Source: Bradyrhizobium sp. 170
Lineage (GTDB): Bacteria > Pseudomonadota > Alphaproteobacteria > Rhizobiales > Xanthobacteraceae
Direction: 5' to 3'
Assembly: GCF_023101085.1 (NCBI RefSeq)
Contig: NZ_CP064703.1
Location: 6,386,001-6,450,000, forward strand
DNA: 64,000 nucleotides
Shown here: positions 16,559 through 53,345 of the stretch, piece by piece
How positions within the stretch are numbered: position 1 is the first letter of the stretch
How the letters are laid out: each line of letters begins with the position of its first letter
The notes under the pieces: generated by a model
The model's database searches: none
What the model saw: the letters and a program-made list of their open reading frames with translations, nothing else
Told to the model about the DNA's origin: nothing
Translations under genes and position numbers: made by a program

Positions 16559-17388
16559 GCGACGACCACATCCTATCCGTCGATCGCCTGTCGATGCGCT
16601 TCGGCGGCATCGTCGCCGTCAACGAACTCTCCTTCAATGCCGAGCGGCGCAAGATCACCGCGCTGATCGGGCCGAACGGCGCCGGCAAGACCACCGTCTT
16701 CAACTGCATCACCGGCTTCTACAAGCCCACATCAGGCGCCATGCGGCTCGCGCATAATGACGGCCCCGCCATCCAGCTCGAACGGCTGAACGATTTCCGG
16801 ATTTCCAAGCTGGCCAAGGTCGCGCGCACCTTCCAGAATATCCGGCTGTTTCCCGGCATGACGGCGCTGGAAAACCTGATGGTGGCGCAGCACAACGCGC
16901 TGATGCGCGCCTCCGGGCTGACGTTTCTGGGCCTGATCGGCGCACCGTCCTGGCGCAAGGCCGAGCAGGCCGCGATCGATCTGGCGCGGACCTGGCTCGA
17001 CCGCATCGGGCTCCTCGATCGTGCCGACGATGCCGCCGGCAATTTGCCCTATGGCGACCAGCGGCGTCTGGAGATCGCGCGTGCGATGTGCACCCAGCCC
17101 GCGCTGCTCTGCCTCGACGAGCCGGCGGCCGGCCTCAACGCGCGCGAAAGCGCCGCTTTAAGCGAATTGCTGCTCTCGATCCGCGCCGATCAGGGCACCT
17201 CGATCTTGCTGATCGAGCACGACATGAGCGTGGTGATGGAAATCTCCGACCACGTCGTGGTGATGGACCACGGCGTCAAGATCGCCGAAGGCACGCCGCA
17301 ACAGATCCGCGACGATCCCAAGGTGATCGCCGCCTACCTCGGCGCCGACGAGGAAGAAGCCATCGCCGTGATGGAGAGCGGAACGTGA
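16555..17388 (+). CDS. livG: ABC transporter ATP-binding protein LivG
   Basis: A 277-residue ATPase of the liv transporter. Walker A is GPNGAGKT (residues 39-46), the Q-loop lies in [18 protein letters not shown], the signature is [15 protein letters not shown] (the usual LSYG is LPYG here) and Walker B is [12 protein letters not shown], followed by the H-loop [11 protein letters not shown]. The C-terminal [18 protein letters not shown] is characteristic of LivG. The end overlaps the GTG start of livF. Confidence 0.95.
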
Positions 17389-18301: not shown

Positions 18302-19420
18302 ATGAAATCACTGAAACTCATCGGCCTGGCTTTGGGCGCATCGTTGGCGCTGTCGACAACCGCGCTGGCGCAGGACATCTCCATCGCCGTGGCGGGCCCG
18401 ATGACGGGCGGCGAATCCGCGTTCGGCCGACAGATGAAGAACGGCGCCGAACAGGCGGTGGCCGACATCAACGCCGCCGGCGGCGTGCTCGGCAAGAAGC
18501 TGGCGCTGCAGGTCGGCGACGATGCCTGCGATCCCAAGCAGGCGCGCTCGGTGGCGGAAAAGTTCGCCAGCGCCAAGATCCCGTTCGTGGCCGGTCACTT
18601 CTGCTCGTCGTCGTCGATCCCGGCGTCGGAAGCCTACGCCGACGGCAACGTGCTGCAGATTACGCCGGCCTCGACCAACCCGCTGTTCACCGAGCGCAAG
18701 CTGTGGAACGTGGCGCGCGTCTGCGGCCGCGACGATCAGCAGGGCCTGGTTGCCGCCGACTACATCGTCAAGAACTACAAGGGCAAGAACGTCGCCATCC
18801 TCAACGACAAGTCCACCTACGGCAAGGGCCTCGCGGAGGAAACCAAGAAGGCGCTCAACAAGGCCGGCTACACCGAGAAGATGTTCGAATCCTACAACAA
18901 GGGCGACAAGGACTTTAACGCGATCGTGTCGCGGCTGAAGCGCGACAATATCGATCTGGTCTTTGTCGGCGGCTACCATCAGGAAGCCGGCCTGATCCTG
19001 CGCCAGATGCGCGACCAGGGCCTCAAGACGGTGTTGATGGCGGGCGACGCCCTGAACGACAAGGAATTCGCCTCGATCACCGGTCCGGCTGGCGAAGGCA
19101 CGCTGTTCACCTTCGGTCCCGACCCGCGCAACAAGGCGACCGCCAAGGCGATCGTCGAGAAGTTCAAGGCCAAGAACATCGATCCCGAGGGCTACACCCT
19201 CTACACCTATGCCGCGATGCAGGTCTGGACGCAGGCGGTGGCGAAGGCGAAGACCACCGATCCGAAGAAGGTCATGGAGACCATCAAGGCCGGCGAATGG
19301 GACACCGTGCTCGGCAAGCTTTCCTTCGATGCCAAGGGCGACATCAAGGTGATCGACTACGTCGTCTACAAGTGGGACGCCAAGGGCAACTACACCGAGA
19401 TCAATCCGAAGGGGTCCTGA
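18302..19420 (+). CDS. livK: ABC transporter substrate-binding protein LivK
   Basis: A 372-residue periplasmic binding protein. The Sec signal peptide covers residues 1-23 (cleavage after ALA). The mature protein has the type 1 periplasmic fold landmarks ISIAVAGPMTGGESAFGRQMKNG, GDDACDPKQA (Leu/Ile/Val-binding family) and HFCSSSSIPAS near residues 100-110. GAGGATAT precedes the ATG at 18302. The ligand is not certain: such proteins bind branched-chain amino acids or aromatic acids. The last 72 bases are repeated at 22881-22951 on the other side of an AT-richer insert. Confidence 0.94.
   Translation: MKSLKLIGLALGASLALSTTALAQDISIAVAGPMTGGESAFGRQMKNGAEQAVADINAAGGVLGKKLALQVGDDACDPKQARSVAEKFASAKIPFVAGHFCSSSSIPASEAYADGNVLQITPASTNPLFTERKLWNVARVCGRDDQQGLVAADYIVKNYKGKNVAILNDKSTYGKGLAEETKKALNKAGYTEKMFESYNKGDKDFNAIVSRLKRDNIDLVFVGGYHQEAGLILRQMRDQGLKTVLMAGDALNDKEFASITGPAGEGTLFTFGPDPRNKATAKAIVEKFKAKNIDPEGYTLYTYAAMQVWTQAVAKAKTTDPKKVMETIKAGEWDTVLGKLSFDAKGDIKVIDYVVYKWDAKGNYTEINPKGS
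19349..19420. repeat. Direct repeat, livK copy (left flank of insert)
   Basis: The last 72 bases of livK match 22881-22951 with three substitutions and one single-base deletion (TGGGACG here, TGGACG there). A similar terminator follows both copies. Together they bracket the three minus-strand genes at 19510-22714. Confidence 0.85.
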
Positions 19421-19450
19421 TTCCCCTCTTGCCAGCTTCGCGCGATCATA

Positions 19451-19478
19451 CGCCCCGGCTTGCCGGGGCGTTTTTTTT
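19451..19478 (+). terminator. Rho-independent terminator of the liv operon
   Basis: CGCCCCGG, loop CTTG and CCGGGGCG form a perfect stem, followed by eight T residues. It lies 30 bases after the livK stop. Confidence 0.95.
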
Positions 19479-19509
19479 GGAACGACAGCCCGTCGGAAGC
19501 GCGATTGAA

Positions 19510-20106
19510 CTAACCGTGCGCCGGCCTTCGATGTGTGGCCGACGACAAGGCCTGGAATACAATCGCGCCCGTTATCGAGATGATTATTGTGTAAAACTTC
19601 AGCCGTGTCAGTAAGGACGAAACCTGACCGTCACGCTTCGAAATCGTACCCGGCGCTCTGAGAAGCGAAACCAATGTAAGATCTTCAGCAACGTCTAATA
19701 TGCCGTACAACACTGCGCATGCAGTAAACAGCAGCAGCAGCAGATCCCGTGGCAAACCCGATAACCCGAAATGAATTATGATCCATACCCAAAAACTCGC
19801 TGAAGAGATCGAGAGCGCTATGGCAAATACAATATCGTTCCAGAGCAGGACCGGGCGAATATACATGTCAAGCAACGTTTGCTGCTCATCTAACCGATGT
19901 GATTCGAGGTGGCTAGCCACCCGCTTGAGATAGCTGCAATCGTAGCCTTCAAGCACTCTTCGTTCGGGGACAGGCAGGCTCTCGCCAAGACATTTGTCAA
20001 TTTTGTCTCGAGGCGCCACGTTCTTGACGAACGCGCCGACAGCTACAGCCAAGCCTATAGCGCTAATCGCAAGCAACAAATGGTACGACACAACAGCCTT
20101 CTCCAC
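19510..20106 (-). CDS. Membrane protein of unknown function, island gene 3
   Basis: A 198-residue protein with four hydrophobic segments (about 7-27, 85-112, 119-140 and 168-188). The stretch between the first two is polar, with two Cys residues, and probably lies on one side of the membrane. The start is a GTG at 20106. It is the last of three minus-strand genes (DUF2235, pentapeptide protein, this) spaced about 20 bases apart, so probably one transcript. Local composition is AT-richer than the flanking genes. No family recognised; an immunity or effector-anchoring role is only a guess. Confidence 0.65.
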   Translation of the reverse strand: MEKAVVSYHLLLAISAIGLAVAVGAFVKNVAPRDKIDKCLGESLPVPERRVLEGYDCSYLKRVASHLESHRLDEQQTLLDMYIRPVLLWNDIVFAIALSISSASFWVWIIIHFGLSGLPRDLLLLLFTACAVLYGILDVAEDLTLVSLLRAPGTISKRDGQVSSLLTRLKFYTIIISITGAIVFQALSSATHRRPAHG

Positions 20107-20127
20107 CCTCAGATGATTTTCGAACCA

Positions 20128-21336
20128 TCAACGGTCGCAAGATTTAGTTGAAAGACAACGTTTCACTCGAAAATCTTTCCCAAAAACATCGATCCCAAAT
20201 GGCTGAGCATCCTCAATCACGGCGAGCTCGGGATTGGTTGCTGGGTTGGATGGATCGATAGCTTTTCCCACACAGGCATCCGCAAGCATTTTCGACGTTA
20301 AACCTTTGGCATTAGAAAAATTGGCACGGCTAATGTCTGCTCGACAAAAATTCACTCCGCTCAAATCGGCATCGCGAAAATCTGCACCTGACAGCACCGC
20401 CCCTTCGAAATTTGCGTCTCGCAGCTTAGCGTACCGAAAGTCGGTCACCCAGCAACGATAGCGCTGCCACTCCAATGGCCCTCCGTCCCTTTCTGCCTTG
20501 TAGAGCTTATTCTTGATGGTATTCGCAGGAAACCCCGGCGTGGAAAAATCTCCAAGCTGAACTCCCCGAAGATCAGCTCCACTCAAGCTCGCGCCATAAA
20601 AGGAAGAGCGGTGGAAGTGTGATTGCGACATCTTCGCACACGAGAAATCGCGCCCGGAGAGGTCCAGGTTGTCGAGCTTCATATGCTCTAGCCAAAGCGG
20701 ACCACGATCGACGGACTGTTTTTCAGGGGCGCATTTGTCAGTCGTGAAATTGAGGCGGCTTGCAGCAAACTGCGGATGGCCCACCGCCTTCATCGCGACC
20801 TTTAGCACTGTGGGAGCTTCATCGCGATCGTCACGTAGCCCTTCAGTCGAAATCAGACGATCCTCACACTGGAGGGACCGCGTCATCATATTTTCCGCCT
20901 GATGGTCGGCGATGAATTGGGTCAAAACCTCACTAGCCTGCCGGTGGAACCTTTTCGGATCTTGGACTCCAAGAAGCTGTAGCGTCGTTACGCCCGCAAT
21001 TTTCGTTGTAAGGGAGGAATCCTTGCTGACGGTCTTTATTGCTTCTGTATACTGTGTCAGTCGCTCCTGCGCTGATCTCAATTCGAAGTCTGCAGTCCAT
21101 TGCTGAGTCGTGGTACCGAATTGGATCATGGTGGCCAAAAATGTAGCACCCAAGGCAATCGCCGTAAGAACCTGATAATTTGTCTGACGCAACCGGTCCT
21201 GAACCTCTAGCCGCCTCAGATCGGTTTCAGTAAAATGCGGTGGCACTTGATCGCGCGGCGCGGCCCACCAGAACCACAAGAACGTTGCCAGTCCCACGAA
21301 TATGACGAACCCGGCCAAGCCGAACAGTACAGCCAT
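20128..21336 (-). CDS. Membrane-anchored pentapeptide-repeat protein, island gene 2
   Basis: A 402-residue protein. Two hydrophobic segments lie at about residues 4-26 and 56-76, followed by a helical region (about 80-200). Pentapeptide repeats with the A(D/N)LxX pattern follow in two blocks, LDLSGRDFSCAKMSQSHFHR to LRGVQLGDF, and after a short insert YAKLRDANFEGAVLSGADFR to ISRANFSNA. Such repeats fold into a right-handed quadrilateral beta helix used in protein contacts. In many bacteria similar membrane-anchored pentapeptide proteins are of unknown role. It sits 19 bases downstream of the DUF2235 gene, and GC content is low for this genome (43 percent in 20281-20340 by count). Confidence 0.85.
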   Translation of the reverse strand: MAVLFGLAGFVIFVGLATFLWFWWAAPRDQVPPHFTETDLRRLEVQDRLRQTNYQVLTAIALGATFLATMIQFGTTTQQWTADFELRSAQERLTQYTEAIKTVSKDSSLTTKIAGVTTLQLLGVQDPKRFHRQASEVLTQFIADHQAENMMTRSLQCEDRLISTEGLRDDRDEAPTVLKVAMKAVGHPQFAASRLNFTTDKCAPEKQSVDRGPLWLEHMKLDNLDLSGRDFSCAKMSQSHFHRSSFYGASLSGADLRGVQLGDFSTPGFPANTIKNKLYKAERDGGPLEWQRYRCWVTDFRYAKLRDANFEGAVLSGADFRDADLSGVNFCRADISRANFSNAKGLTSKMLADACVGKAIDPSNPATNPELAVIEDAQPFGIDVFGKDFRVKRCLSTKSCDR

Positions 21337-21355
21337 TCTGAATCCCCAACTACAA

Positions 21356-22714
21356 TTACGTAAATCTATAGTTTAGTGCTTCAAGTCGACTTCTTGCAGC
21401 TTCGACTATTGCGTTTGCTCGAGCGCCATCGAGTCGAAATCCATCCCATCCGACAACTCCCAAACCGGATTCGTCGGAAGATGCTATGCCGGCCTCGATT
21501 TGCGAAAGTGCGGAGATCAGATTTCGCGGCAGGTAATTCCGGTATGAGCGCTGCGTAACCAGTCTTTTTCCCAAACGGAGCAGCGCACTAATGTGAACCA
21601 TTTCTCCGATCGGAACATTGTGTCGATCATAGCAAACGTCGACTTCCCATCGCGCGCGGCGGGCATTCCCGAAACAGTTTCCTATCGAACGATAGGCGAA
21701 GGGGCGAGCGGAAAAGATGCTTCGTCTGGCTTCGTGATGAGGCGACAGATAGGCAGCTCCAAACGCCAAAGAGTCGGGGTTCTTGCTCGCTATTGGAAAG
21801 TCATCGCAATGATACCGCAGTCGCCTTATCATCCAGTCGAGCGTTAGATCGTCGAGCGCACGCTGTGGTAACGAATCTCGCGTACGTTCTTCGATGTAGC
21901 CTCCACCAATATCCGAATGGGCACCGGGAAACCAAACTTGCTCTGCCTGGGATGAAACATGCTCAAACTTCGGTTGCCGCCAGAGAGTGGCTTCAAAAGC
22001 CTCTCGATGCTCATCTATGGCGAGTGCTTGAACGCTAACATCACATTTGGGGGACAGTCCGACATCATGAAACTCGAATAGATCCCTGTTCTCTCGTCTG
22101 AACCAGGCGATCGGAATTCCCAAAGCACCCACCGTGTCGAAAACGCCTAGAAACCTAATCTTCACGAGCGGCGTTGGGTGGGAATTCTTCCGTATTTCCG
22201 CCGCTTCCGTCGGCAAGCGATCCAACGGGCTGGTCCTATAATGATACCACGCTCGAGATTCATTGGCCGCGGTGCAACTCGACGCCCGCAACAACCCGAC
22301 TGCGTTGATGTATCCAACGAGTGAACGCGCCGTATACGAACCACGCGAAAAGCCGAATATGAAAATTTCATCTTCAGGCTCAAAGTGCCTTGAAAGAAAA
22401 AGGTATGCGCGCCGTACATTACGGCTCAGACCAGCTCCAAAGGCACCGCCTCTCACATTGTCAAGAAAGCCACCAGTACCTACGCCTCGTTCGTAGAAGA
22501 CGATGTACGGCGTGGTCCGTCCTCCCGCAGTATGAACTCTGTAGCTGATCGAAGTTTGATTCGACGCCGAGGCCGGAGTCGTGACGTCGGGCCTTGAAGG
22601 AATTGGGTCGAGACAGGTTGCGATATTTTCCCGCAGCCGCACAATGTTGGTATCGCTCACACCGATGTCGGCGTCATTCCAGGTCCCATCCAGCAACAAA
22701 ATAATGCGTTTCAA
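21356..22714 (-). CDS. DUF2235 alpha/beta hydrolase (Tle1-like phospholipase domain), island gene 1
   Basis: A 452-residue protein with the DUF2235 fold. The N-terminal LLLDGTWND (residues 5-13) is the conserved start, and GFSRGSYTAR carries the GxSxG nucleophile Ser123; GAHSDIGGGY further on holds the conserved Asp of the family. Characterised relatives include type VI secretion phospholipases (Tle1) and uncharacterised bacterial hydrolases. No secretion genes are nearby. No ATG fits the start; a TTG at 22714 puts the conserved motif at the usual place, and another TTG at 22783 is open. It heads an apparent three-gene operon of low GC content. Confidence 0.88.
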   Translation of the reverse strand: MKRIILLLDGTWNDADIGVSDTNIVRLRENIATCLDPIPSRPDVTTPASASNQTSISYRVHTAGGRTTPYIVFYERGVGTGGFLDNVRGGAFGAGLSRNVRRAYLFLSRHFEPEDEIFIFGFSRGSYTARSLVGYINAVGLLRASSCTAANESRAWYHYRTSPLDRLPTEAAEIRKNSHPTPLVKIRFLGVFDTVGALGIPIAWFRRENRDLFEFHDVGLSPKCDVSVQALAIDEHREAFEATLWRQPKFEHVSSQAEQVWFPGAHSDIGGGYIEERTRDSLPQRALDDLTLDWMIRRLRYHCDDFPIASKNPDSLAFGAAYLSPHHEARRSIFSARPFAYRSIGNCFGNARRARWEVDVCYDRHNVPIGEMVHISALLRLGKRLVTQRSYRNYLPRNLISALSQIEAGIASSDESGLGVVGWDGFRLDGARANAIVEAARSRLEALNYRFT

Positions 22715-22809
22715 ACCACACCCGTCAAAAAATATAGGTAAAATACACCCTTGAATTGTGGAAGAGCTTGGCAACGTCGTCAAGTGGGAAACCGGGTCGA
22801 GGCCGAGAG

Positions 22810-22951
22810 TCTGTCGCGCGGCGTGTCCGACCGGCCAAAGGAGATGGATGAAGGCCGGCGATTGAATGCTGTGCTCGTCAGTAATCGACTATGTCGTCTA
22901 CAAGTGGACGCCAAGGGTAACTACACCGAGATCAATCCGAAGGGGTCCTGA
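22810..22951 (+). pseudogene. Decayed remnant of a livK 3' end
   Basis: The last 71 bases (22881-22951) match the livK terminus, including the stop codon, with a one-base deletion that breaks the frame. Upstream, short matches such as AAGGCCGGCGA and GTGCTCG appear in the same order as in livK with a deletion of about 40 bases, so the remnant seems to reach back to about 22810. It is not translatable as LivK. The upstream limit is approximate. Confidence 0.7.
22881..22951. repeat. Direct repeat, second livK-end copy (right flank of insert)
   Basis: Partner of 19349-19420. It differs by three substitutions and one deleted base, so the duplication is not very recent. Confidence 0.85.
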
Positions 22952-22974
22952 CCCTTTCATCGATCAGAACGTCA

Positions 22975-23005
22975 AACGCCCCGGCTTGCCGGGGCGTTCA
23001 TTTTG
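22975..23005 (+). terminator. Terminator copy after the livK remnant
   Basis: AACGCCCCGG, loop CTTG and CCGGGGCGTT form a perfect 10-base-pair stem followed by CATTTT. The stem core is identical to that of the livK terminator at 19451; the T tract is interrupted. Confidence 0.85.
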
Positions 23006-23199
23006 GGTTCCAGATAATTTTTGGGCCACGGGAACTATTGGGTTCCCGCCGCATTGTGCAAACTGGGCTGAGTTCCATGTCATTGATTTCTCGACCTTAA
23101 CCGTTATTCCAACTTGATCTGCCGGAGGGGCAGCGGTTCTATCTGTGAAATCGCATTTCAGCCCAAGTGATTTGCGCGCGAACTGGCCGAGGAAACACT

Positions 23200-26100
23200 A
23201 TGAGTGACCTTTCCCCTGGAGCATCACCCTCCGTTCGCCGGGTCACCAAACCGCAATCACCCGCCGCCAACGGCACGCCCGACCCGATGCAGGACTTGCT
23301 GCACGCCTTGCAGGCGATGCGGTCGGGCGATTTCTCGGTACGGATGACCGGCGATCACCTCGGTATCGAGGGCAAGATCGCCGACACCTTCAATGAAATC
23401 GTCGCCGCCAACCAGAGAATGGCGCAGCAACTCGAGCACGTCGGCCAGGTCGTCGGCCGCGAAGGCAAGACAAGGCAGCGCGTCAAGTTCGACCTCTCGA
23501 GCGGCTCGTGGGCGGACATGGAAGGCTCCGTCAACACGCTGATCGACGACCTGCTGTGGCCGACCCGCGAAGTCACGCGCGCGGTCGCAGCCGTGGCCCA
23601 AGGCGACCTGCTGCAAACCGTGAAACTCGACGTCGACGGCCGCCCGCTGGGCGGCGAATTTTTGCAGTCGGCCAACATCGTCAACACGATGATCAAGCAG
23701 CTCGGCGTGTTCACCTCGGAAGTGACGCGCGTGGCGCGCGAGGTCGGCACCGAAGGCAAGCTCGGCGGCCAGGCCCAGGTGCCGGAAGTGACGGGCGTCT
23801 GGAAGGACCTGACCGAGAGCGTCAACTCGATGGCCAACAACCTGACCGGCCAGGTCCGCAACATCGCCGAGGTCACCATCGCGGTGGCCAACGGCGACTT
23901 GTCGAAGAAGATCACGGTGGACGTCCGCGGCGAGATCCTGCAGCTCAAGGAAGCCATCAACACGATGGTCGATCAGCTCCGCTCCTTCGCCTCCGAAGTG
24001 ACCCGCGTCGCCCGCGAAGTCGGCACTGACGGCAAGCTTGGCGGCCAGGCGATCGTCCCCGGCGTCGCCGGCACCTGGAAGGATCTGACCGACTCCGTCA
24101 ACGCGATGTGCGGCAACCTCACCGCCCAGGTCCGCAACATCGCCAACGTCACCACGGCGGTCGCCCGCGGCGATCTCTCGCGCAAGATCACGGTCGACGT
24201 CCGCGGCGAAATCCTGGAGCTGAAGGACACCATCAACACGATGGTCGACCAGCTCAACTCGTTCGCGTCCGAAGTGACCCGCGTCGCCCGCGAGGTCGGC
24301 ACCGAAGGCAAGCTCGGCGGTCAGGCCCAGGTCCCCGGCGTCGCCGGCACCTGGAAAGACCTCACCGACAACGTCAACTTCATGGCTTCCAACCTGACGG
24401 CGCAGGTCCGCAACATCGCCGACGTCGCGACCGCGATTGCGGGCGGCGACCTCTCCAAGAAGATCACCGTGAACGTCTCGGGCGAAATCCTTCAATTGAA
24501 GGAAACGCTCAACACGATGGTCGACCAGCTCAACGCCTTCGCGGGCGAAGTCACCCGCGTCGCGCGCGAAGTCGGCACCGAGGGACGGCTCGGCGGCCAG
24601 GCCAACGTGCTCGGCGTCGCCGGCACCTGGAAGGATCTGACCGAGAGCGTCAACTCGATGGCGAGCAATTTGACGGCGCAGGTCCGCAACATCGCCGAGG
24701 TGACGACCGCGGTCGCCAATGGCGACCTGTCGAAGAAGATCACGGTCGACGTGCGCGGCGAAATTTTGGAGCTGAAGGACACCATCAATACGATGGTGGA
24801 TCAGCTCAATGCGTTCGCCGGCGAAGTGACCCGCGTCGCGCGCGAAGTCGGCACCGAAGGCAAGCTCGGCGGCCAGGCCAACGTGCGCGGCGTCGCCGGT
24901 ACCTGGAAGGACCTCACCGACAACGTCAATTCGATGGCCGGCAACCTCACCGCTCAGGTCCGCAACATCGCCGAAGTCGCGACCGCGGTGGCGAAGGGCG
25001 ACCTGTCGAAGAAGATCACGGTCAACGTGTCGGGCGAAATCCTTCAGCTGAAGGAAACGCTCAATACGATGGTCGACCAGCTCAATGCGTTCGCCGGCGA
25101 AGTGACCCGCGTGGCGCGCGAGGTCGGCACCGACGGCAAGCTCGGCGGTCAGGCCGAAGTGCCTGGCGTCGCCGGCACCTGGAAGGATCTCACCGACAGC
25201 GTCAACTCGATGGCCGGCAATTTGACGGCGCAGGTCCGCAACATCGCCGAGGTGGCGACCGCGATCGCCGGCGGCGACCTCTCGCGAAAAATCACGGTCG
25301 ACGTGCGCGGCGAAATCCTGCAGCTCAAGGAAACGCTCAACACGATGGTCGACCAGCTCAATCGCTTCGCCGGCGAAGTGACGCGCGTGGCGCGCGAGGT
25401 CGGCACTGAGGGGCGATTGGGCGGTCAGGCCAACGTGCCCGGTGTCGCCGGCACCTGGAAGGACCTCACCGACAACGTCAACTCGATGGCCGGCAATTTG
25501 ACCGGCCAGGTCCGCAACATCGCCGAAGTCACGACGGCGGTGGCGAAGGGCGACCTGTCGAAGAAGATCACCGTCGACGTCAAGGGCGAGATTCTCGAGT
25601 TGAAGAACACCGTCAACACGATGGTGGATCAGCTCAACGCCTTCGCCTCCGAAGTCACCCGCGTGGCGCGCGAAGTCGGCACCGAAGGCAAGCTCGGCGG
25701 CCAGGCGCAGGTGCCTGAGGTGGCCGGCACCTGGAAGGATCTCACCGACAACGTCAACTTCATGGCCTCGAACCTCACCGCGCAGGTCCGCAACATCGCC
25801 GAAGTCGCCACCGCAATCGCCGGCGGCGACCTGTCGAAGAAGATCACGGTCGACGTGCGCGGCGAAATCCTGTTGCTGAAAGACACCCTCAATACGATGG
25901 TCGAGCAGCTACGTTCGTTTGCCGCCGAAGTGACGCGCGTGGCGCGCGAGGTCGGCACCGAAGGACGATTGGGCGGCCAGGCCGTGGTGCCCGGCGTCGG
26001 CGGCACCTGGAAGGATCTGACCGACAACGTCAACCTTTTGGCGGCCAACCTCACCACGCAGGTCCGCAACATCGCCGAAGTCACGACCGCGGTGGCCCGC

Positions 26101-29100
26101 GGCGACCTGTCGCGCAAGATCACGGTCGACGTGAAGGGCGAAATCCTCGAGCTGAAAAACACCATCAACACGATGGTCGATCAGCTCAACGCTTTTGCCG
26201 GCGAAGTGACGCGCGTCGCGCGCGAAGTCGGCACCGAGGGCAAGCTCGGCGGTCAGGCGCAGGTCCCCGGCGTCGCCGGCACCTGGAAGGACCTCACCGA
26301 CACCGTGAATTTCATGGCCGCCAATTTGACCGAACAGGTGCGCGGCATCGTCAAGGTCGTGACGGCGGTCGCCGACGGCGACCTGAAGCAGAACCTGACC
26401 GTGAAATCGAAGGGCGAAGTCGCGGCCCTTGCCGACACCATCAACAACATGACGGAGACGCTCGCGACCTTCGCCGACCAGGTCACCAGCGTGGCGCGCG
26501 AAGTCGGCGTCGAGGGACGGCTCGGCGGTCAGGCCAACGTGCCCGGCGCCGCCGGCACCTGGAAGGACCTCACCGGCAACGTCAACCTGCTCGCCGCCAA
26601 CCTGACCTCGCAGGTGCGCTCGATCGCCGAGGTGGCGACCGCCGTGACCAAGGGCGACCTGACCCGCTCGATCCAGGTCGACGCCCGCGGCGAAGTGGCC
26701 GAACTCAAAGACAACATCAATACGATGATCGGCAACCTCCGCCTGACGACGCAGGTGAACACCGAACAGGACTGGCTGAAGACCAACCTCGCCAAATTCA
26801 CCAACATGCTGCAGGGCCAGCGCGACCTCACCACCGTCGGCCGGCTGCTGCTGACCGAACTGGCGCCGCTGATCAACGCGCATATGGGCGTGATCTATCA
26901 GACCGAGAGTGCCGACAGCCCGCAGTTGCGCCTGCTCTCTTCCTATGCCGGCGACGGCGCCAATCCGAATCCGCAGGTCGTGCAGTTCGGCGAAGGATTG
27001 ATCGGCCAATGCGCGATGGACAAGCGTCAGCGGCTGGTGGCGGATATCCCGAGCGATACCGCGCCGATCAATTCGGGGCTGCTGCGCGTGATCCCGAAGA
27101 ACATCGTCGTGCTTCCGGTGCTGTTCGAGAACCAGGTGAAGGCCGTGATCGAGCTCTCCTCGATCAGCTCTTTCACCACCTCGCAGATGACCTTCCTCGA
27201 ACAACTGACCGACAGCATCGGCATCGTGCTCAACTCCATCGAGGCCACGATGCAGACCGAGGGACTGTTGAAGCAGTCCCAGCAGCTCGCCGGCGAACTG
27301 CAGACGCAGCAAAAGGAATTGCAGCAGACCAACGACCAGCTCGAACAAAAGGCCCAGCAGCTTGCCGAGCGCAACGTCGAGGTGGAAAGAAAGAACCAGG
27401 AAATCGAACAGGCCCGCCGCGCGCTCGAAGAAAAGGCGACCGAGCTTTCGCTGACCTCGAAGTACAAGTCCGAATTCCTCGCCAACATGTCGCATGAGCT
27501 GCGCACGCCGCTCAACAGCATCCTGATCCTCGGCCAGCAGCTCACCGAAAATCCGGAAGGCAATCTGTCGGCAAAACAGGTCGAATTCGCCCGCACCATC
27601 CACGGCGCCGGCACCGACCTGCTCAACCTGATCAGCGACATTCTCGACCTGTCGAAGATCGAATCCGGCACCGTGACGGTCGATGCCGAGGAGATCCTGA
27701 CGTCGAGCCTCCTGGAGACCGTCGGGCGGCCGTTCAGGCACGAGGCCGATAATCGCCGTCTGTCGTTCAATATCTCGGTCGACGAGAATCTGAGCCGCAG
27801 CATGGTGACCGACTCCAAGCGCCTGCAGCAGGTCCTGAAGAATCTGTTGTCGAACGCATTCAAGTTCACGGCCGAAGGCGGCGTGGAGCTGAACGTATCG
27901 GCCGCCGTCGGCGGCTGGAGCGCCGAACACCCGATCCTCAACCACGCGCCCGCCGTCGTCGCCTTCGAGGTGACTGACACCGGCATCGGCATTCCCCTGG
28001 AAAAGCAGAAGCTGATCTTCGAGGCGTTCCAGCAGGCGGACGCCGGCACCAGCCGCAAATACGGCGGCACCGGCCTCGGCCTTGCCATCAGCCGCGAACT
28101 CGCGGGCCTGCTGGGCGGCGAAATTCACCTGCGCAGCGCGCCCGGCAAGGGCTCTACCTTCGTGCTCTATCTGCCGCTGAAATATTCCGGTCCGACGGTT
28201 GCACCACGGGCCCCTGCCCCGTCGCCCTTCGCGTCAACGCCGGCGCTGCAGGTCGCTGCGACGCAGGAGCGGGTCATCGAGCAGTTGCCGGACGACCGCC
28301 TCAACCTCGAGCCGGGAGACACCATCCTCCTGATCGTCGAGGACGATCCGCATTATGCGCGGGTACTGATCGACCTGGCGCGCGACAAGAGCTTCAAGGT
28401 GCTGGTCGCCAGCCGTGGCGCTGAGGCGCTTGAACTCGCCAAGCAGTTCCAGCCGGCGGCGGTTTCGCTCGACGTCTTCCTGCCTGATATGCTGGGCTGG
28501 ACCGTGCTGAGCCAGCTCAAGCACAATCCGCTGACGCGGCACATTCCGGTACAGATCATCACGCTCGACGAAGACCGTCAGCATGCGCTGGCGCGCGGCG
28601 CGTTTTCCTTCGTCAACAAGCCGACGACGACCGAAGGCGTCAGCGCGGCGCTGTCGCAGATCAAGGAATATGCAAAACCGCGACGCAAGCGCCTGCTGAT
28701 CGTGGAAGACAATGCCGCCGAGCAGATGAGCATCACCGAATTGCTCGGCCACGACGACATCGAGATCCTCACCGCCGACACCGGCGCCGATGCGTTGTCG
28801 ACACTGCGGAACCAGCCGTGCGACTGCGTCGTGCTGGATCTGCGGTTGCCTGACATGAGCGGTTTCGAGGTGCTCGACCGGCTTCGCGACGACGAAGCGC
28901 TATCGAACATACCCGTCGTGGTGTTCACGGGGCGGGAACTATCGGCCGAGGAAGATGCGGAACTTCACACCATGGCGAGGAGCATCGTGGTGAAAGGCGT
29001 CGAGTCGCCGGAACGCCTGCTCGACGAAACGTCGCTGTTTTTGCACCGTGTGATCACGGAATTGCCGGTCGAAAAGCAGAGGATGCTCGAAAAGCTCAAT

Positions 29101-29490
29101 AGTTCCGATGAGGATCTCGTTGGCAAAACTGCACTTCTGGTGGACGACGACGCACGCAACATCTTCGCACTATCGAGCGTGCTCGAACGGCGTGGGATGA
29201 AGGTACTGACAGCGACGACGGGCCACGAAGCCATTGCGCTGGTCGAGTCCACCCCCAATATCGCAATCGTGCTGATGGATATCATGATGCCGCAGATGGA
29301 CGGCTATCAGACCATCGGCGTTATCAGGCAAAACCCGTCCTTCGGACGCCTGCCGATCATCGCGCTGACCGCCAAGGCGATGAAGGGCGACCGCGAGAAA
29401 TGTCTCGAAGCCGGCGCTTCGGACTATCTCGCCAAGCCCGTCAATACCGAGCAGTTGCTGCTCGCGATACGAATGTGGTTACACCGCTGA
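23200..29490 (+). CDS. Giant soluble hybrid histidine kinase with eleven HAMP-type repeats and three receiver domains
   Basis: A 2096-residue cytoplasmic hybrid kinase without transmembrane segments. Residues 1-170 hold two divergent HAMP-like units. Residues 171-1182 are eleven tandem 92-residue repeats ([19 protein letters not shown] to [12 protein letters not shown]), nearly identical also in DNA. A GAF domain follows (about 1195-1360), then a long coiled coil, HisKA with phospho-acceptor His1432 (SHELRTP), HATPase_c (DTGIGIP near 1592) and three receivers starting near 1708, 1830 and 1977. The poly-HAMP layout resembles fungal group III kinases (Nik1/Os-1), which sense osmotic stress; that is family knowledge, the stimulus here is unknown. 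The ATG at 23200 is preceded by GAGGAA. An HWE kinase gene follows after 7 bases. Confidence 0.93.
23710..26745. repeat. Eleven tandem 276-base coding repeats (HAMP units)
   Basis: Eleven in-frame units of exactly 276 bases (92 codons) encode the poly-HAMP stalk. Units 1-9 are highly similar; units 10 and 11 diverge toward the kinase end (for example [12 protein letters not shown]). The regular length makes the array prone to copy-number change by recombination and to assembly collapse. Confidence 0.9.
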
Positions 29491-52900: not shown

Positions 52901-53345
52901 GATGGCCGAACAGGATCAGCATGCCATCGCCGATGTAGCGGCTGATGCTGCCGCCATGTTTGCGGACGATCGCCGCCACGCCATCGCGGTACGCGGCGAT
53001 AACCTCCCGTAGATCTTCCGGATCGAGCTGTGCCGCAAGCGCCGTCGAGCCGACGAGGTCGCAGAACATCACCGTGAGCTGGCGGCGCTCGGCGGAAGAA
53101 CTTGGCACGGTTGGCAAGATCGACGGTTCGGCGACCCGCGGCACGGTGGGCGTCGACGCTCCGGCCGCTGCTGATACTTGCGCACCTCCGGTCGGCGTCA
53201 GCGCGGCACCGCAGTCGCCGCAGAACCTTTTACCCGACGGGTTTTCGGCCCCGCAGGCGGCACAGCGCACGGGGAGCGGCGCGCCGCAGTCGCCGCAGAC
53301 CTTCTTCCCCTCCGGATTGGCACTACCGCAGCTCGGGCAATCCAT
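49989..53345 (-). CDS. Adenylate/guanylate cyclase with double zinc ribbon, AAA ATPase and TPR regions
   Basis: An 1118-residue soluble protein. Residues 1-50 are a double zinc ribbon (Cys3, 6, 17, 20 and Cys28, 31, 42, 45). A class III nucleotidyl cyclase domain (about 87-265) has the metal Asp in TVMFCDLVGSTAL and the GDGMLILFG loop. An AAA ATPase of the STAND type (about 280-600) follows, with Walker A GEAGIGKS near 311-318 and Walker B-like LFEDAQWID. The C-terminal 450 residues are TPR-like helical repeats. Such proteins are common in Bradyrhizobium and their input signals are unknown. It stands alone on the minus strand. Confidence 0.92.
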   Translation of the reverse strand: MDCPSCGSANPEGKKVCGDCGAPLPVRCAACGAENPSGKRFCGDCGAALTPTGGAQVSAAAGASTPTVPRVAEPSILPTVPSSSAERRQLTVMFCDLVGSTALAAQLDPEDLREVIAAYRDGVAAIVRKHGGSISRYIGDGMLILFGHPSAHEDDAESAVRAALEIAAATHAPPGLELQVRLGLATGLVIVGDLIGSEAAEAQAVLGETPNLAARLQALAEPDGVVIAEDTRRLIGGLFDYQDLGPVTLKGFAAQVRAWRVLREGTAESRFEALHAAALTPLVGREEELELLGRRWRRARTGTGQVVLLAGEAGIGKSRLVTALQERIEGEPHTRLRYFCSPHHQDSALYPFIAQLQRAAGFEREDRPEARLDKLRALLSPASPPDEEVAILAELLSIPTCDSYLPIALTPQQKKERSLDALVRQLESLARRRSIMILFEDAQWIDPSSRELLDRTVERVASLPVLLLITFRPELQSAWTGKSHVSAMVLNRLDQGASAALIRSVAGNRTLPSEILDEIAERTDGVPLFVEELTKAVLEAAAGVARAVSAAPLPGLTVPPTLHASLMARLDRIGPVAKEVAQVGAAIGREFSYDLLAAVAHRSDSELRAALDRLIGAGLVFRRGEPPDANFLFKHALVQDAAYGTLLRGHRRELHARIARVLEERFTKAAEAHPEILAHHCGNAGLIEKAVSYWQQAGQRSKARSAMAEAIRQMRKALDLLFELPETPERQRTELELQLALGGALIAAKGHGAEETGKAYVRARRLCELQNDTPNLLKALWGEFVHHHTRAETNRSHRAAEELLNLAARQEDRAALVAGHRAVGDSWLHRGRLGAARAHLEQGLAFYDPAQHHSLTVLFAENARVAMLSFLSLTLGLLGFADQAQARSREAVAEARELSHPISLAFALSVACRLHFVLEDPRTVRRRAEELIALTTEQRFAFFLAMGTTYRGWTLVEAGDAEAGIDLLRRGIEGFQASGAAWILPFYLAQLATAHAKTGRPEEGLGRLSEALALTEKSGVRWFEAELHRRRGELLLTAHAGAEAEAEADFRHAIAIARRQDAKLWELRAATSLARLWRGQGKRDEARAPLMSVHGWFTEGFDTPDLKEAKALLDELSA

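Follow-up and report, generated by a model that had tools for sequence, protein, structure and literature searches.

A gene island beside livK in Bradyrhizobium that very probably brought in a new livK 3′ end and displaced the native one

The 3′ end of livK, including its stop codon and terminator, is present twice in the 64-kb stretch of DNA analysed here (the window), at 19349-19480 (inner end) and at 22881-23006 (outer end), with three opposite-strand genes lying between the two. This arrangement raises the question of which end is native to the locus and by what route the other end and the three genes arrived. The original prediction, which had reported this duplication, regarded the outer copy as the altered one and as the sign of an old event, and offered two origins: an element that integrated at the livK 3′ end and restored the gene, or a tandem livK copy that decayed and received cargo. 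Alignment of the 132-bp inner end with the 126-bp outer end gave 114 identities, 10 mismatches, and 10 gap positions, with a score of 88.5 compared with a maximum of 8.0 in 500 shuffles, and thus the duplication itself was borne out. The features of the locus, with origins worded according to the interpretation developed below, are as follows.

18302-19420, plus strand: livK, branched-chain amino-acid ABC transporter substrate-binding protein (Pfam PF13458, E 8e-57), intact, its last part taken as incoming
19286-19296, plus strand: 11-nt stretch AAGGCCGGCGA, the same in the inner and outer copies, at the left limit of the repeat
19349-19420, plus strand: inner livK 3′ end, in frame, from the alignment of the copies
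19421-19449, plus strand: inner spacer, presumed incoming, at shuffle level when compared with the livK downstream regions of relatives
19450-19471, plus strand: inner terminator-like stem followed by a T-run, from the sequence
19510-20106, minus strand: small 198-aa protein containing hydrophobic segments, without a family in Pfam, NCBIfam, or PADLOC; eight relatives listed, including the protein itself
20128-21336, minus strand: pentapeptide-repeat protein, 402 aa, with a hydrophobic N-terminus (PF00805, E 1e-22)
21356-22714, minus strand: Tle1-like/DUF2235 hydrolase (PF09994, E 5e-72), probable TTG start, ORF extendable to 22783
22715-22847, no strand: island right end, upstream region of the hydrolase gene; short weak matches only, in four other genomes
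22848-22951, plus strand: probable displaced native livK 3′ end, a pseudogene with a 1-nt deletion and a net loss of about 32 nt, from sequence comparison
22952-22974, plus strand: probable native livK-terminator spacer; its match to relatives (tested as 22952-22975) was equalled by 0 of 300 shuffles
22975-22998, plus strand: probable native livK terminator-like stem, from comparison with relatives
22999-23199, no strand: native intergenic region from the livK terminator to the kinase gene, joined without a break to the outer livK end in relatives with an empty site
23200-29490, plus strand: gene for a giant hybrid histidine kinase, flanking the site on the right, named from its repeat and domain pattern

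The outer copy was found to reach further upstream than the original prediction had placed it, as collinear livK sequence extends to about 22848, with a gap at which some 32 nt net are missing (3 nt in place of 35 nt of the intact gene). The local score of the livK match across this gap was reached by 0 of 2,000 dinucleotide shuffles, while livK sequence upstream of 22848 was not significant (1,323 of 2,000 shuffles). The 11-nt stretch at the left limit corresponds to livK nt 985-995. In addition to the 1-nt deletion, the outer copy has two T fewer in its terminator tail. The livK reading frame is intact despite the island; its product differs from that of the relative G022 at 8 amino acids over 372 aa and scored below the cut-off of NCBIfam NF011933.

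The island is 3.4 kb in size, with three cargo genes, and is atypical in composition and sporadic in distribution, as expected of a horizontally acquired genomic island. Its GC content is 52.5%, compared with 64.1% for the window without the island, and the GC3 of its genes is 52-58% vs 86-90% for livK, livF, and the kinase gene; the lower GC reported for the three genes was likewise reproduced (43.3% at 20281-20340 vs 65.0% at 16561-16620). No full-length DNA match to the island was detected in the 264 other genomes of the genus (two candidates scored per genome), where, terminator aside, its DNA gave only partial or short matches. A search for strains with an empty site and a single livK end, as the original prediction had proposed, found 22881-23080 to be unbroken in 31 of these 264 genomes (matches covering 1-200 or 4-200 of the query; 265 genomes searched, including the source genome). 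In these relatives one continuous block runs from the outer end through its terminator and on to the kinase gene, and a single livK was present at G022 and at each of the other empty-site loci read directly. A missing GC dip, or the three genes being carried by all relatives with the repeat confined to this strain, had been named as grounds against the idea; the lowest-GC 3.4-kb windows of the 64 kb lie at the island, and the island was present in no other genome searched.

The two ends were compared with relatives to establish polarity. The single livK end of G022 was 94.7% identical to the outer copy over 133 bp, but 85.1% identical to the inner end over 134 bp. The outer spacer and post-terminator sequence matched relatives in a way that none of 300 shuffles equalled, whereas those of the inner end were equalled by 84 and 64 of 300 shuffles, respectively, and were also unlike those of the outer copy. 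Three coding sites differ between the copies: the inner allele is found in most of 30 relatives, and the outer alleles in 2, 8, and 2 of the 30, which include the close relatives G022, G254, and G272. For the coding sequence alone the outer copy was not closer to G022 (95.8% over 72 nt for the outer, 97.1% over 140 nt for the inner). A GATTG variant of the outer copy, which is one site in the decayed stretch, was shared with G022 and G051. Overall, we consider it very probable that the island was acquired and that the native livK end survives, displaced and in decay, as the outer copy, with the inner end having arrived with the island.

If the outer copy is native, most of the differences between the two ends would be allelic rather than the result of decay; the 1-nt deletion, the 32-nt loss, and the two missing T of the terminator tail look like decay. 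The polarity read from these comparisons is the reverse of the one in which the outer copy was the altered end. Nor does the great age that had been assigned to the event follow from the changes in the outer copy, since its spacer, flank, and alleles at the three coding sites occur in close relatives.

Our preferred reading, to which we assign a probability of roughly 60%, is that an incoming livK end, its terminator, and a convergent cassette recombined into the livK-kinase interval, with a homologous left join and an illegitimate right join. The incoming DNA would have carried (i) a livK 3′ end from another lineage; (ii) the terminator of that gene; and (iii) just behind it, the convergent three-gene cassette in the order small membrane-type protein, pentapeptide-repeat protein, and Tle1-like hydrolase. 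The target would have been the livK-kinase interval of this Bradyrhizobium lineage. A left join in register inside livK would cause the gene to take over the incoming 3′ end and terminator and would thereby keep its frame, while a right join at about nt 980 of the resident livK would strand its last 140 nt, together with the native spacer and terminator, next to the kinase gene, where this remnant is now decaying. The assignment of the two joins is drawn from the junctions, where livK is in register on the left and ends abruptly at about 22848 on the right; a donor with the cassette behind livK was not found in the genus search. The left crossover gave no signal by which to locate it, as livK is too conserved, and the right join had no clear microhomology. 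For homology-facilitated illegitimate recombination (HFIR) as the route we put the odds at about even. It is favored by the lack of a tyrosine integrase within 410 kb and of any other displaced livK tail in 80 genomes, and also because, from its left limit onward, the outer copy is native wherever a feature can be assigned, which a right-hand illegitimate join gives automatically.

HFIR has been used to model how effectors are displaced in the T6SS clusters of Vibrio cholerae, and for orphan rhs 3′ ends (PMC5361080). In that account, too, homology anchors the incoming module, and a remnant of the native 3′ part ends up downstream of it; however, the arriving 3′ part and the one that it displaces are different effectors, whereas the two livK ends code for the same end of LivK and the island has an unrelated convergent cassette as cargo. 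Microdiversity loci, small variable segments of bacterial genomes which their authors attribute partly to homology-assisted illegitimate recombination (PMC2884548), are likewise short insertions between conserved genes, but in that account flanking repeats accompany 10-18% of segments and are mostly <30 bp, compared with a gene end and terminator of about 160 bp in the livK island.

The main rival, which we regard as unlikely though not negligible, is the remnant of an integrase-bearing, site-specific element whose attP contained the livK tail and terminator. This element would have inserted near livK nt 985-995 and repaired the gene, and its integrase would have been lost afterward. The identical 11-nt stretch at the left limit of both copies and the native appearance of the outer copy from that limit onward would fit such an element, and the anatomy is the same as that of e14 in the icd gene of Escherichia coli, in which the prophage displaces a 163-bp icd end and itself provides the new 3′ end (PMC6379469). 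As presented in that source, e14 and the livK island have in common that the 3′ end of a protein gene is hit, the gene is completed by the incoming end, and the native tail persists as a short pseudogene beyond the insertion. However, e14 is a prophage that uses site-specific recombination (PMC6379469), whereas the livK island is 3.4 kb with three cargo genes and no recombinase, and the terminator is duplicated as well; completion of the gene and a displaced tail are shared, while a recombinase and reuse of the site by related elements (80 genomes) were not found. Pfam and NCBIfam scans detected no recombinase among the three island proteins, and the closest Phage_integrase (PF00589) matches in the chromosome, in a search for tyrosine integrases, were 413 and 457 kb away, in agreement with the predicted lack of an integrase. 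Of the 84 other multi-match genomes, 80 were examined for another insertion that had displaced a livK tail, and none had one, although fragmented assemblies could hide it. Of 10 proteins downstream of livK in other lineages (chosen from 16 loci), none was an integrase and four had no family. The hydrolase was also unmatched in a collection of 50,697 phage records, and a phage origin for it was set aside. Acquisition at the livK 3′ end and restoration of the gene were upheld; integration targeted to that end fits the anatomy, with site-specific integration being only one possible route. Integrases, too, restore gene ends, a point that was counted against HFIR. Transposition was rejected, as no transposase was among the three proteins and what is repeated is the end of a gene with its terminator rather than a short target duplication.

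A Campbell-type single crossover, by which circular DNA with a livK fragment and the cassette is integrated whole through homologous recombination, would need no integrase to arrive at the same arrangement. The crossover could lie at any point of the shared stretch of about 260 nt, yet the native-type features of the outer copy (the single-site GATTG variant, the three coding alleles, and the spacer) would place it in the first ~15 nt, and we find this route improbable. Disfavored still further, to the point of being very improbable, is a tandem duplication of livK with decay of the second copy and later insertion of cargo. Two livK ends of which the outer is decayed are what it would leave, and the distant genome G122 does have two full-length livK ends 1.4 kb apart; however, copies made in one event would share their spacer, and the inner spacer and post-terminator sequence resemble neither those of the outer copy nor those of relatives, with one livK at the empty-site loci read.

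Returning to the cassette of the preferred reading, the livK ends enclose three minus-strand ORFs of 198, 402, and 475 aa. Translation of the hydrolase probably starts at a TTG near 22714, judging from the start points of its relatives. Similar to other PF09994 Tle1-like/DUF2235 hydrolases, it matches the full catalytic domain and has the GFSRG motif, which is invariant in 11 aligned sequences; it differs in being paired with a pentapeptide-repeat gene in a genome with no match to the T6SS sheath protein VipB (PF05943), the one T6SS component searched (an E. coli control was positive). Delivery of the hydrolase by a resident T6SS is therefore unlikely. The hydrolase family is common, with the protein matched in 97 of 149 genomes, and the hydrolase-pentapeptide pair was found again elsewhere in the genus. 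PADLOC anti-phage models gave one weak hit to the three proteins (E 0.034), judged to be chance, as were the short matches of the right end (about 22715-22850), of which two were in lon-like ORFs and one in another ORF. A plasmid origin was also discarded, as the 206 plasmid records matching the hydrolase and the 25 matching the pentapeptide protein were all <60% identical. It is conceivable, though doubtful, that the three genes are a conserved, T6SS-independent conflict cassette (Tle1-like hydrolase, membrane-anchored pentapeptide-repeat partner, and small membrane protein) which spreads integrase-free by carrying the 3′ end and terminator of its neighbor; if so, its landing would heal the very gene that it broke.

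The livK island appears to illustrate clearly a route, already known in bacteria, by which small gene islands are gained, here integrase-free or integrase-lost and with the direction of change readable from the sequence: the incoming DNA would have completed the gene that it entered, and the native end would have become the remnant. When duplicated gene ends are read in the opposite polarity, the native end is mistaken for a mutated copy. The locus also draws attention to the pairing of a Tle1-like hydrolase with a pentapeptide-repeat protein, which is recurrent but little studied and is found here in a genome where no T6SS sheath gene was detected.

The repeat-flanked island behind livK is real and was well described in outline by the original prediction, with a direction of change opposite to the one given there. 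The window covers 6386001-6450000 of one 9.195-Mb contig, and the site comprises the following features.

Features of the livK site
18302-19420, livK; its 3′ end, stop codon and terminator are repeated at 22881-23006
19510-20106, minus strand, 198-aa membrane-type protein, assigned to no family in Pfam, NCBIfam or PADLOC
20128-21336, minus strand, pentapeptide-repeat protein (PF00805, E 1e-22) whose N-terminus is hydrophobic as read from the sequence
21356-22714, minus strand, Tle1-like/DUF2235 hydrolase (PF09994, E 5e-72)

Alignment of the inner and outer livK ends returned 114 identities, 10 mismatches and 10 gap positions at a score of 88.5 (highest of 500 shuffles, 8.0), and a search of the own genome with the outer end recovered both copies and one 30-nt match elsewhere. 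The repeat finder started the outer copy at 22881; collinear livK sequence was found to reach upstream to ~22848, consisting of AAGGCCGGCGATTG, GTGCTCG, and then 3 nt versus 35 in the intact gene. At its collinear place this stretch had a score reached by 0 of 2000 dinucleotide shuffles, while neither the next stretch upstream of ~22848 (1323 of 2000) nor the one before it (748 of 2000) was significant. When the upstream part was aligned with the whole livK gene, 1 or 2 of 500 simple shuffles did as well; thus, the support for this extension leans on collinearity. Elsewhere in the window, two 57-nt direct repeats (53200-53331; 72% identical, 75 nt apart) probably represent a repeated protein motif. 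In composition, the island genes were 52.5% GC versus 64.1% for the rest of the window, with a GC3 of 52-58% versus 86-90% for livK, livF and the kinase gene; the two values counted by hand to call the island AT-richer (43 percent at 20281-20340 and 65 percent at 16561-16620) were correct on recount.

The genus search covered 265 genomes, the own one included. Among the matches listed, the block 22881-23080 (outer livK end, terminator and gap) was uninterrupted, with rows covering 1-200 or 4-200, in at least 31 of the 264 other genomes. In loci read directly, G022 being one example, one livK end is followed by the gap and then by the kinase; G053 fits an empty site on a contig that stops within the block. 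Empty sites with a single livK end, which the original prediction had linked to integration, do therefore exist in related Bradyrhizobium, and the insertion is private to this lineage among the genomes compared. In G001 a different ORF sits between the sole livK terminator and the gap, and the livK end is not duplicated; this insertion (L054, 1780-3560) is a convergent 472-aa ORF, which we take to be DUF1254-like. Searches at 16 more distant loci did not detect the kinase next to livK.

The single livK end of G022 was 94.7% identical to the outer copy over 133 bp versus 85.1% to the inner end over 134 bp. When compared with the livK downstream regions of relatives (up to 86 loci, several genomes counted twice), the spacer of the outer copy and the sequence after its terminator each scored above all 300 shuffles, whereas 84 of 300 shuffles did as well as or better than the inner spacer, and 64 of 300 as well as or better than the sequence after the inner terminator. 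At the three coding sites that differ, the outer alleles do occur among 30 relatives, in 2, 8 and 2 of them (the first two sites in G254 and G272, the last two in G022). Counter to a native outer end, most of the 30 carry the inner allele at each site. Residue 332 is Glu in the inner end and Asp in G022; the outer copy still has the GAT codon. Within the coding part, the outer copy (95.8% over 72 nt) is not closer to G022 than the inner (97.1% over 140 nt); hence, the case for the polarity comes chiefly from the non-coding sequence, in which the contrast is clear. From these sequence comparisons we conclude that the outer livK end is native and the inner end incoming, which reverses the polarity of the original prediction.

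On the left side livK is in register, and on the right side livK homology ends abruptly at livK nt 980-985. Homology-facilitated illegitimate recombination (HFIR; PMC3240628, PMC5361080 and PMC2884548) would combine anchoring by homology in livK at the left end with illegitimate joining at the right end; by this route the outer copy would necessarily be native throughout, as is observed. No donor with the cassette behind livK was found in the genus search, so that HFIR is a route we infer. The main rival is a site-specific element whose attP carries the livK tail, similar to e14-icd, the E. coli prophage at the icd 3′ end (PMC6379469). It also predicts a wholly native outer copy; however, the island is without a recombinase, no PF00589 match lies within 410 kb, and no second displaced livK tail was detected in 80 of the 84 other genomes with at least two tail matches (G118, G293, G294 and G324 omitted), where second matches were livK ends, either full-length or paralogous, or short stretches distant from livK. 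Campbell insertion is improbable, as its crossover would have to fall within the first ~15 of roughly 260 shared positions, and a decayed tandem livK duplication, the other origin considered in the original prediction, is more improbable still, as it fails on the spacers. Separately, a distant genus genome (G122:C18:19314-20853) has two full-length livK ends on the same strand, 1.4 kb apart (79% and 78% to the query). The own genome (contig C1) holds four triplets of neighbouring tyrosine recombinases, equal in score (near 2747040, 3611365, 5961747 and 6879182), and seven further integrase matches sharing one score, probably recent copies of mobile elements.

Full island DNA was not found elsewhere in the genus, with two candidates scored per genome yielding only partial or short matches outside the terminator. 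The hydrolase belongs to a common family, matched in 97 of 149 genomes at E 0.001, with best identities of 46-56% among the matches listed in other genomes. The own genome had no match to VipB, which makes it unlikely that the hydrolase is an effector of a resident T6SS. Among 11 wider cargo loci (L097-L107), full-length hydrolase and pentapeptide genes were adjacent in four (G106, G107, G242 and G319), a weaker pentapeptide match adjoined the hydrolase in two (G026 and G016), and the hydrolase (G125 and G129) or the membrane gene (G248 and G281) stood alone in two each. The remaining locus, G318, had remnants of both: 34 hydrolase N-terminal residues, 7 nt, then pentapeptide residues 294-344 (L106, 8332-8593), apparently derived from the same pair by deletion. 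Near the pair in G242 (L099, 11595-14476), an ORF with a long unrelated tail, whose start presumably resembles ribosomal protein S3, adjoins another ORF that we take to be possibly CHAT-like. None of the partner genes were found near more distant hydrolases in 13 smaller loci (1.5-kb flanks). Hydrolase relatives of 74-78% identity came from short contigs with jgi, lgn or ena labels, which are probably metagenomic. The own hydrolase's cluster (P0009) has two member sequences and a 3558-base contig, making a second source possible. Equal contig sizes among hydrolase and pentapeptide matches (8353, 22110, 8906, 4036 and 3732), and between one membrane-protein and one pentapeptide match (5392), suggest, short of proof, shared contigs. 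In the 534-aa database protein P0188, the hydrolase C-terminal part runs into the N-terminal 269 residues of the pentapeptide protein, which may be a genuine fusion or an artefact of the reading frame.

Titles and abstract openings of the papers listed by literature searches described neither livK as an integration site nor a cassette of DUF2235 with pentapeptide repeats, and those on islands in protein genes of Bradyrhizobium described neither site nor cassette. Overall, the event is a fresh example of a kind already known, and the cassette it carries is unstudied; our guess is that its hydrolase is a lipid hydrolase that acts, with a membrane-anchored partner, in competition or defence.
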